The notes under the pieces: model-generated
Seen by the model: the letters and a program-made list of their open reading frames with translations, nothing else
Databases searched by the model: none
Told to the model about the DNA's origin: nothing
Shown here: piece after piece, positions 2,942-29,545 of the stretch
Layout: the number at the start of each line of letters is the position of its first letter
Numbering within the stretch: the first letter of the stretch is position 1
Made by a program: the position numbers and the translations under genes
From: Saprospiraceae bacterium
GTDB lineage: Bacteria > Bacteroidota > Bacteroidia > Chitinophagales > Saprospiraceae
Length of the DNA stretch: 64,000 bases
Direction: 5' to 3'
NCBI GenBank assembly: GCA_025056735.1
Contig: JANWVR010000103.1
Span: 1 to 64,000 of the forward strand

Positions 2942-3248
2942 TTACCGATTAAGCCTTTTTCATCCGCAAACATCCGAAAAGTCAATCGGTATTCTAACCC
3001 ATTGATACCTACTTTTTTCATACTATAAGCGGCTCATTGCGGCTCAAATTGTAACTGCCGAGGCCACCGACGACCGCGCCGACGGAAATAAGGTTCTGCA
3101 CTTCTCTGCGGCTCTCTGCAGTTTTTCTATGAAAAATTCAAAAATCTTTACGGCCTTTCGCCGTCAGAAAAAAGTTCAGAAAGCACAGCGACCTTCCTGA
3201 AAAACGGCTTACTTATTATTTTATTAAAGGTCACAGATATCTAACTTT

Positions 3249-3451
3249 CTTTAACCGCCCGATCCATCGGATGTAGTAGGCAAAACACCTCCTTCTCTAT
3301 CTGTAACCTCTTGACAAACACCCCATCATGAATGAACATCTCATGCCGAGCGGAAAGATTTGTCGGGAGGATAGAGCGTCCAGCCAAAACGGCTTCTGAT
3401 AGAAAGCGGGTCGCCAACAAGGCACTCCATCTAAGCAGTACATAACATCAG
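3249..3451 (+). repeat. Diverged or partial copy (A) of the dispersed MITE-like element
   Basis: TAACCGCCCGATCCATCGG (3252), TAACCTCTTGACAAACACCCCATCATGAATGA (3304), ATGCCGAGCGGAAAGATTTGTCGGGAGGATAGAGCGTC (3343) and CATAACATCAG (3441-3451) match copy B at nearly identical spacing (52, 91 and 191 nt versus 52, 90 and 190). Left end not recognisable. Confidence 0.7.
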
Positions 3452-11164: not shown

Positions 11165-11399
11165 GGCCCAAAAGGCCTCTTTGGGCCAAACAAGCAGGCC
11201 AAACAAGCAGGCCAAACAAGCAGGCCAAACAAGCAGGCCAAACAAGCAGGCCAAACGAGCAGGCCAAACAAGCAGGCCAAACAAGCAGGCCAAACAAGCA
11301 GGCCAAACAAGGCAGGTCAAACGAGCAGGCCAAACAAGGCAGGTCAAACGAGCAGGCCAAACAAGGCAGGTCAAACGAGCAGGCCAAACAAGTTTGGCC
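11165..11399. repeat. Minisatellite (16 units of 13/14 bp) capped by inverted repeats
   Basis: Units of AGGCCAAACAAGC from 11183 to 11393; the last part forms three 27-bp composite units (AGGCCAAACAAGGC + AGGTCAAACGAGC). Inverted repeats GGCCCAAA/TTTGGGCC (11165-11172/11180-11187) and GGCCAAAC/GTTTGGCC (11382-11389/11392-11399). Confidence 0.97.
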
Positions 11400-11400
11400 G

Positions 11401-13110
11401 CTACTGGTAGCGGCGTTTGCGGCGCCAGTGGAAGAAGATGCCGAACAGCGCTAAGAAGAGCAACGGAGCGCCGATGTTGAGCGCTTGCCAGAGCGGTTTT
11501 TCTTCTTTGGCGCGCACAGTGTCCAACAGGCGAAGTTTGACCTCGCGCGAGCGGGCCTCGATGACGCCTGAAGACTCGATGAGGTATTCCACCGCGTTGA
11601 TGAGCAGGTCGCGGTTGGCATAAGTGGCGTTCTCGAAGCGGTTGAAGCCCAACGGGAGCCATTCCTTTTTGGCTGGGTCGCGCACGAAGTTGGCCGCTAC
11701 ATCGCCATCGCTGATAACGATCATGCGCGTGGGCTGGCTTCGCGGTCGGAACTGCAGGCCGGCCTGGCGCAATCCTTCGGCCATTTGCTCCGACACGCGG
11801 TTTTCGTAGTTCGAAGGAAATTCCCCTTCCAGCAGCACGCCCAGCGTCTGATGGCCCTTGTTGAAGTACTCCGGCTTGAGCTCCTCGCCCATGATCTCAA
11901 AGCCTATTTCGATGGGGCTGAACTGCAGGCGGCTGTATCGGCTGCTGCGCAACAGCACAGTCTTGTTCACCGGCGTTTTGGTGCGGATGGTGTCTATGGA
12001 GGAGCAAAAGCGCAGTTCTACACGGTCTAAGTTTTTGACCACCGGATGGGCGCCTGTAGGCAGCACGGCTAAGTGATAGGGCCAGGGGAAGAGCCGGAAT
12101 TGCGGTGCATTGCCCACTACGCCCACTTGAAGCGGGATTTGCGTGCACTCCATATCGAGCACTAAATCAGGCTGAATGCGCACGCCATACTTGAAGAGCA
12201 TGTCCTCTAAGTTGAGCGGATAATCGCTGGGAATGAAGCGCTTCTGGTGGCGCAGGCTGTCTAAGCTGGCATTGAGGCGATCCACGAGCCACAGCACCTT
12301 TCCGCCGCCCATGATGTATTGATCCACGATGAACTTATCGCGCTCTGAAAAGGCCGTGCGCGGCTGGGCAATGATGAGCAGTTCGCACTTATCGGGCGGC
12401 AGGTGGATGATGGAGTCCAGCGCAATGCGGTCCGTGTCATAGAACTGCCGCAGCGAGCGCTCGAAGTCTTTGGTCTGAAGTTCGTCCAATTCTCCGTGTC
12501 CGCGCGTGAAGAGAATAATGGGCCGCCCTTTGGAGCGCAGTTTCTTGATGGCGTTGGCGAACTTGTACTCCAGCAGGCTAATGGAATTATTGATGACCTC
12601 ATCGGGCAGCAACGTGGGCGATTGGTTTTCCAAAAGGTTGACAATGACCTTGCGACTGCCGTAGTGAAAGACGGCTGTAGGATAGATAATTTGCGATTTG
12701 CTTTCGCCTTCGCCACGCACGTTGAGGTTGACCGGAGCGATGCCCTCTTCCAGCAGGGCTTTTCGGCGAGCATTGACTTCTTCCTTGCTGCCCTTGTTAG
12801 GGTCTTCAAACTGGTAGTCAATATAGCCGCTGACGCTGCGAAAGTCGTCCAGCATTTCGCGGGTAGCGGTGCGCAGGCGCTTGAAACCTGCCGGGAACTC
12901 CCCTTCGAGCAGCACGCGGACGTAGATGCGGTCGTCTATACTTTTGAGCAGCTCGCGCGTGGGCTTAGTGAGCGTGTAGCGCTTCTCCTCCGTCAAGTCT
13001 AAGTGTGTGTAGGCCTGATTGGCTAAGATGTTGATAAAAACTAAAATGCCGGCAAACAGGCCGAACTGCAACAGAGATTGCGTGCGTTGAGAACGTGGCA
13101 TAGTGTGCAA
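11401..13110 (-). CDS. gldG: Gliding-associated ABC transporter substrate-binding protein GldG
   Basis: 569 aa; FINILANQAYTHLDLTEEKRYTLTKPTRELLKSIDDRIYVRVLLEGEFPAGFKRLRTATREMLDDFRSVSG; C-terminal TM and RRKRRYQ. Confidence 0.92.
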   Translation of the reverse strand: MHTMPRSQRTQSLLQFGLFAGILVFINILANQAYTHLDLTEEKRYTLTKPTRELLKSIDDRIYVRVLLEGEFPAGFKRLRTATREMLDDFRSVSGYIDYQFEDPNKGSKEEVNARRKALLEEGIAPVNLNVRGEGESKSQIIYPTAVFHYGSRKVIVNLLENQSPTLLPDEVINNSISLLEYKFANAIKKLRSKGRPIILFTRGHGELDELQTKDFERSLRQFYDTDRIALDSIIHLPPDKCELLIIAQPRTAFSERDKFIVDQYIMGGGKVLWLVDRLNASLDSLRHQKRFIPSDYPLNLEDMLFKYGVRIQPDLVLDMECTQIPLQVGVVGNAPQFRLFPWPYHLAVLPTGAHPVVKNLDRVELRFCSSIDTIRTKTPVNKTVLLRSSRYSRLQFSPIEIGFEIMGEELKPEYFNKGHQTLGVLLEGEFPSNYENRVSEQMAEGLRQAGLQFRPRSQPTRMIVISDGDVAANFVRDPAKKEWLPLGFNRFENATYANRDLLINAVEYLIESSGVIEARSREVKLRLLDTVRAKEEKPLWQALNIGAPLLFLALFGIFFHWRRKRRYQ

Positions 13111-13128: not shown

Positions 13129-13159
13129 ATTTCTGTTCGGGCTGTAGGGTATTTACTCG

Positions 13160-13438
13160 CTGACCTTACGCAGACGGGGCATAATGCCGTTCGCCTAAGG
13201 TTGCATCTTCCTGTCGTGGTGGGCACATCACACATCCTGTAACCGCCCGATTTATCGGGTGGAACGGACGAAACTCTTCCACAACCACATATAACATCCT
13301 GATAAACAACACATCACGCATAGGACTGGATGCCAGAGTGGAAGATGTGTCAGAGGGATGGAACATCTAATGAAAAAGAGGATTACTAAGCAGGTGTGGC
13401 GCTGATAGGTTCTTCATTCAAGTCATGCGTAACATCAG
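13160..13438 (+). mobile_element. MITE-like element, full-length copy B (279 bp)
   Basis: TIRs CTGACCTTACGCAGAC / RC of right end CTGATGTTACGCATGAC; flanked by TTACTCG (13153-13159) and TTACTCA (13439-13445); colinear and same length as copy C. Confidence 0.8.
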
Positions 13439-13526
13439 TTACTCATTTCCTGACTCGAGACATGACAATTGCTGACGCTGTAATTCTTTTCCTGACCTTT
13501 GCTGTCCAATAAGGCACATCAGACAC

Positions 13527-28939: not shown

Positions 28940-28994
28940 AAGCCAAAGAAATCCGGCCCTCAACGCAACAGGTACCTGGAAGCCGTTTTTTTAA

Positions 28995-29273
28995 CTGACG
29001 CTACGCACGAGCGGCATGGAGCGTCCTGTCAGCGTCTAACCTGCTCGGTGAAAGCTTTGGCCGCCAAAGTCTGTATTCCTCTGAAAACCTCCCCCCAGCA
29101 CGACACATTCCTCCATGATGTGATGTCTGTCAGGATGTTAGATGAGGTGCAGGGATTGTCCTCCCCTATCCCACCCGATAAATCGGGCGGTTACAGGATG
29201 CTCGATGTGCTCGCCTCAACCGAACGACAATCCCAAGGGAGAACGGCATTCCGCCTCGCCTGCTTAAGGTCTG
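28995..29273 (-). mobile_element. MITE-like element, full-length copy C (279 bp, inverted relative to B)
   Basis: Flanked by TTTTTAA at 28988-28994 and 29274-29280 (TTAAAAA in element sense); termini CAGACCTTAAGCAGG... and ...GTGCGTAGCGTCAG; contains CATCCTGTAACCGCCCGATTTATCGGGTGG identical to copy B. Confidence 0.82.
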
Positions 29274-29545
29274 TTTTTAATTTTAAAACACGCCATAAAA
29301 GGTCATAAAAAGAACGGGAAGCGGTGTAAAAGACGACAACATCAGCCTGAAAAGAAACTTCACGACGGCTGCCACTACGCTCAAACACAAGCACAGGCAA
29401 TACCCAGGCGTACCTTCGCGTGCTGCATCGGTCGGATTTTTTTTTGAAAAAACAGCGTCTGTGGAACTAAGACCGATACCTTGAAAGTTTATACCAGTGA
29501 ATAGGCCGCAAAAAACCTGCTCAGCAACCAAACTGGCCTTTCAAT

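Follow-up and report, generated by a model that had tools for sequence, protein, structure and literature searches.

We analysed a stretch of 64,000 nucleotides from a Saprospiraceae bacterium (contig JANWVR010000103.1, positions 1 to 64,000; hereafter the window) that contains a repeated element, copy C, in the intergenic region between two divergent genes for a MoxR-type protein and a sigma factor. With a probability of roughly 80%, we read this element as a composite: a miniature inverted-repeat transposable element (MITE) of the DDE type whose founder captured one repetitive extragenic palindromic (REP) unit, which would then have been amplified as a passenger. A preliminary description of the locus had correctly seen a transposed element with target duplications. 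It missed the composite nature of the element and did not mention that its most conserved part is a separate REP hairpin, of the kind associated with REP-associated tyrosine transposases (RAYTs), that was apparently captured.

Copy C belongs to a repeat family. A search of the assembly from which the window comes (G000; 3.74 Mb, 152 contigs) gave 49 matches at E ≤ 0.001, of which 11 are complete end to end. The earlier label of a second full-length copy was thus right about the length and too low in its count. Copies B and C have the same length, exactly 279 nt, and, as had been claimed, align without net length change. The local score of B against the reverse complement of C was 113, far above the maximum of 25 reached by 500 dinucleotide shuffles (mean 17.4, z = 46). 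The two copies share an identical 30-mer, CATCCTGTAACCGCCCGATTTATCGGGTGG, as well as the other motifs listed in the preliminary description, and they diverge around element positions 170–230, as it had also noted. Indels between the ~280-nt copies would disrupt any common reading frame, and the family is short and multicopy, as is typical of MITEs. The copies that we examined are mainly intergenic, and family copies are truncated in many different ways. Two loci (L010 on G000:C96 and L053 on G000:C126) carry tandemly repeated left element halves with AAAATGAAAAGTG-type simple repeats between them. The window itself contains an array of 13–14-bp tandem repeats at 11184–11405 (GGCCAAACAAGCA), and similar sequence occurs near the family copy in L052. 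Where a family copy lies near a TPR-like gene, in one region shared by G000 and the related genome G011 (L012 on G000:C110 and L038 on G011:C4), the two are 93% identical. As other matched regions of these genomes are only ~73–75% identical, a recent transfer is possible.

Complete copies start with CWGACYTTACGCAGGCGAGGC and finish with GTGCGTAACATCAG, which gives imperfect inverted ends of ~13 bp. The terminal inverted repeats, CWGACYTTACGCA and CTGAYGYTACGCA, are imperfect here and near-perfect in a sibling family described below. All 13 left ends detected in G000 (≤3 mismatches) fell within family copies, and the reversed control gave none. Direct repeats of 7 bp at the element borders were studied in 15 complete copies, 11 from G000 and four from G011, one of the latter being orthologous to a G000 copy. 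The agreement between the two flanks peaked at a length of 7, with an identity of 0.59 versus 0.43 between the flanks of different copies, and neighbouring lengths were near background. Six or seven of the seven flank positions matched in 7/15 copies, and the observed mean was reached in none of 20,000 permutations. The duplications are AT-rich and usually have T as their first base, as exemplified by the flank pairs TTAAAAA/TTAAAAA (copy C), TTACTCG/TTACTCA (copy B), TTAATAA/TCAATAA, TCAATAA/TCAATGA and TTCCTCC/TTCCTCT. Inspection of the sequence bore out that TTTTTAA adjoins copy C on both sides. This heptamer has low complexity, as the preliminary description cautioned; the duplication is nonetheless supported by the 7-bp signal of the whole family. 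The repeat reported around copy B as TTACTC is present, and its length is better given as 7 bp with one mismatch than as 6 bp.

That the copies arose by independent insertions with target duplications, as was previously proposed, is supported by these family-wide duplications and by an uninserted site for another copy. Among the related genomes (also designated by G-numbers), G035 is contiguous and uninterrupted at the site of the copy on G000:C98, with a single TCAGTAA. At the locus of copy C, G035 keeps the order of MoxR-type ATPase and sigma factor, and a single TTTTTTAA lies at the corresponding distance from the start of the ATPase gene. The expectation of an uninserted site was thus partly borne out: the element is absent and TTTTTTAA occurs once, whereas only the left side of the junction could be aligned, the right side having diverged too far. 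For copies B, L002, L021, and L003 in G002/G011, no alignment across the junction was obtained, and for L003 and L007 in G035 the junction was spanned only through diverged sequence. Two G035 contigs (C31:1-950 and C9:1-1000) begin alike, with one MoxR-type gene start, and differ in the paralogue of the window's sigma-factor gene that comes next, which suggests that the locus was duplicated.

The REP-like core occupies element positions ~64–158 (~94 nt), is better conserved than the element middle and is found without the element ends in other genomes of the genus. In an alignment of 52 core sequences, 95.9% of the stem cells were paired and both sides had changed in six of the eight pairs, as in a REP hairpin. 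The stem covariation score was 0.492 compared with 0.140 after shuffling (0/500 as high) and at most 0.146 when the stem was slid. On the core strand, 37 GT/TG wobble pairs were found and only two CA pairs. This indicates that the core 'plus' strand is the strand whose folding matters. A GTAG-type guide directly at the 5' foot of the hairpin was not found: CCTGTAA precedes the stem, and a CTANC motif lies further upstream. With the core model, we counted 52 cores in G000, 70 in G020, 42 in G012, 25 in G061, 23 in G017 and 21 in G011. Many of them form convergent pairs like those of REPINs (paired, inverted REPs), with gaps of 4, 45 or 57 nt in G020, 4–5 nt in G012 and 9 or 56–57 nt in G000. 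In G020, G012 and G017, cores occur without MITE ends. Two further candidates were discarded. The 21-mer CATCCTGACARACATCACATC, the 3' motif of the core, also matches in many genomes of Flavobacteriia and other groups, where it lies inside coding sequence and not in cores, and we regard these matches as coincidence. In various phyla (L123-L153), this coding sequence resembles, in our reading, the queG iron-sulfur motif CDVCQDVCPWN. The idea that the right half of the MITE is a decayed inverted core was unsupported (score 21, p = 0.115).

A search for Y1_Tnp (PF01797), the domain of Y1 (HUH) transposases, gave matches in 34 of 42 genomes of the genus and none in G000, G011, G001, G002 or G035. 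The window's genome thus contains 52 cores yet no Y1_Tnp match, and cores flanking such a gene were not found there. Elsewhere, cores lie directly beside a Y1 gene and face inward at five of the 32 loci examined (two in G012 and one each in G005, G020 and G017). The second flanking core at the G005 locus is the minus-strand match L109:2126-2216. In these four genomes, cores both flank a Y1 gene and are dispersed genome-wide, as in REP/RAYT systems, and match coordinates place the same arrangement on G061:C339. The five core-flanked Y1 genes form one clade among the 32, with support of 99/98. The motif Y---Q--HH is present in 32/32 Y1 proteins, and a regular expression found HuH in 30/32. Y---Q--HH is the signature of TnpA-Y1 subclass 1.2 (Quentin et al. 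2018, PMC6006769), an orphan group for which the survey that defined it reported no typical, insertion sequence (IS)-type terminal structures (PMC6006769). In a profile comparison of three Y1 proteins, each scored higher with NF033573 than with NF047646, the latter falling below its cut-off.

Inverted palindromes of different sequence also flank several other Y1 loci of the genus (L116, L112, L107, L118, L105 and others); several clades have repeats of their own, some of which end in GGTAG or TTGTAG. In G007, the short palindromic repeat CTACCAACATTTGACCTCnnnGAGGTC was counted 87 times genome-wide and clusters to the left and right of a subclass 1.2 Y1 gene (L117 region). Copies are also dispersed as minus/plus pairs, in many of which the spacing is 147 bp. 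Taken together, the core clade, G007 and the other flanking palindromes suggest that REP-like repeats accompany subclass 1.2 genes. They seem to do so across this one genus, a scope that reaches beyond the window.

Next, we consider how the element and its core came together. In the phylogeny of the cores, 98% of bootstrap trees contained a branch that set those from MITEs apart from the other labelled groups, which favours a single capture. Of the 14 MITE cores, one still has the T of the leading CATCTA motif, compared with 37 of 38 other cores; their stem was retained, and the loss of this T fits the decay of a passenger. G035 contains a sibling element (L257, 304 nt; L258, 303 nt; shorter forms L259 and L263) that has the same left ~45 nt and near-perfect inverted ends, CTGACCTTACGCA, and no REP core; one copy is flanked by a 7-bp match (TTCTTAA/TGCTTAA). 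The same ends with different interiors give the picture of a MITE family with swapped cargo. The interior of the sibling family (L257-L263) holds a long hairpin, GGCGACAYCTCC..GGAGATGTCGCC.

We therefore picture the origin of copy C as follows. A cut-and-paste DDE transposase, now lost or not recognisable in G000, would have bound the inverted ends, and insertion by this enzyme would have produced the 7-bp target duplication. The MITE founder would have captured one REP unit of a Y1 transposase system, that is, the hairpin that in relatives flanks one subclass 1.2 Y1 clade and is spread as exact inverted pairs, REPIN-like. From then on, the captured unit would have multiplied along with the MITE as its passenger.

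Several observations weigh against this scenario. When the two halves of the consensus are compared, their inverted ends match only moderately well (p = 0.022 versus shuffles), and a clear duplication is gone in about half of the complete copies. The core tree is short and poorly resolved. Since the MITE clade also takes in unlabelled cores from G020, G017 and G005, a single capture by the MITE founder is likely and not proven. MITE copies have also kept the hairpin well conserved, so it may be more than a passenger. Finally, no transposase or autonomous IS with these ends was found in G000 or the genus by end similarity, by 21-mer and 13-mer patterns or by Pfam searches of genes beside left-end-only copies in G035. 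The autonomous parent may have been lost or be too diverged to recognise; for many accepted MITEs, no parent IS is known.

Could a Y1 transposase have moved the whole 280-nt element as a REP/REPIN-type unit, the flanking 7-mers agreeing by chance? The core is indeed the repeat of a Y1 transposase clade. However, IS200/REP-type transposition leaves no target duplication, and the 7-bp signal of the family, unmatched in every permutation, thus speaks against a Y1-moved element. As G000 has no detected Y1 gene and three relatives carry cores without MITE ends, we give this explanation very little credence. The converse possibility is a core that belonged to the transposon from the start, with the stand-alone cores near Y1 genes in relatives derived from it. 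The position of the G020, G017 and G005 cores within the MITE clade of the poorly resolved tree would fit. However, Y1-bearing genomes are rich in cores and almost none of their matches have MITE ends, the CATCTA motif is kept in the non-MITE cores, and G035 carries the same ends without a core. Moreover, the analogous palindromes at other Y1 clades of the genus suggest that such repeats generally accompany Y1 genes, and we consider a native core highly improbable as well.

A somewhat better, still improbable, alternative is a functional RNA or regulatory cassette (an attenuator, terminator or small RNA), retained by the host in intergenic positions and mobile only incidentally. The one-stranded GT/TG wobble covariation, the conservation of the core relative to the element middle and the mainly intergenic copies, including C between its divergent neighbours, would fit such a cassette. 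GT-wobble covariation is, however, equally expected of a single-stranded DNA hairpin recognised by an HUH enzyme. The window gave no Rfam match at the gathering threshold, the fold of the whole element was slightly better than that of shuffled sequence (z of -1.7 to -2.2), copies are variously truncated, and G035 has an empty site at both loci open to comparison. The features of the repeat in the window are listed in Table 1.

Table 1. Copies of the repeat in the window, with the ends, flanking duplications and core of copy C.
Feature	Position	Strand	Basis
Copy C, complete MITE-like element, 279 nt	28995..29273	-	homology to family, complete ends
Target-site duplication TTTTTAA, left	28988..28994	.	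sequence; family-wide 7-bp duplication
Target-site duplication TTTTTAA, right	29274..29280	.	sequence; family-wide 7-bp duplication
Element 5' terminal inverted repeat CAGACCTTAAGCA	29261..29273	-	copy comparison
Element 3' terminal inverted repeat, read inward CTGACGCTACGCA	28995..29007	+	copy comparison
REP-like core of C: CATC-N-A-N-CATCCTGTAACC, hairpin, linker, CATCTAACATCCTGACAGACATCACATC	29112..29209	-	covariance model R1, E = 6.7e-16
Core stem, 8 bp with 4-nt loop, CCGCCCGA-TTTA-TCGGGTGG	29171..29190	-	covariation
Copy B, complete element, 279 nt	13160..13438	+	flanks TTACTCG (13153-13159) and TTACTCA (13439-13445)
REP-like core of copy B	13224..13320	+	core covariance model
Copy A, left-truncated element, right end intact	3237..3451	+	model positions 66-281

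Bacterial MITEs are non-coding elements of 70–300 bp with terminal inverted repeats and target duplications that occur as dozens of degenerate, mostly intergenic copies (PMC3733652, PMC10969869). The element described here is like Correia/NEMIS, RUP, Nezha and Chunjie in its size, ends, duplications, intergenic copies and lack of coding capacity. Unlike these, it has an entire REP unit from an unrelated HUH system inside it, always at the same position, and its duplication is 7 bp. The core, in turn, is similar to REPs, bacterial interspersed mosaic elements (BIMEs) and REPINs with their RAYT (TnpA-REP): it is a hairpin repeat in inverted pairs of fixed spacing, has many scattered copies and flanks a Y1 transposase gene inward on both sides. 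However, its unit is ~94 nt instead of the 20–40 nt of known REPs, the Y1 proteins linked to it are IS200-like and not class 2 RAYTs, and it lacks a GTAG foot directly 5' of the stem. IS200/IS605 elements use single-stranded DNA hairpins as substrates. The Y1 genes here belong to the same Y1 HUH transposase family (PF01797); unlike in IS200/IS605, the hairpin repeats to the left and right of each gene are in inverted orientation, and many copies occur without a gene. The Y1 genes of the genus resemble TnpA-Y1 subclass 1.2 (PMC6006769) in the Y---Q--HH motif, in low copy number and in their occurrence in Bacteroidetes, whereas the members found here, unlike those of the survey, carry flanking inverted palindromes, which are genome-dispersed for the core clade and the G007 gene.

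More speculatively, the orphan subclass 1.2 Y1 enzymes of Bacteroidota could constitute a further REP/REPIN kind, and the element in the window a DDE/HUH chimera that each of the two systems could have mobilised. We think this rather unlikely; if true, one repeat could spread by two routes, through a DDE enzyme at its ends and an HUH enzyme at its core. The composite origin that we favour would mean that a REP sequence carried within an unrelated MITE can persist after its own transposase is gone; we did not find this way for a repeat to persist described in the literature searched. The link of REPs to subclass 1.2 is the more interesting part of the finding. As judged from sequence, these repeats are candidate natural substrates for subclass 1.2 Y1 transposases, which would make the activity of these enzymes directly testable.
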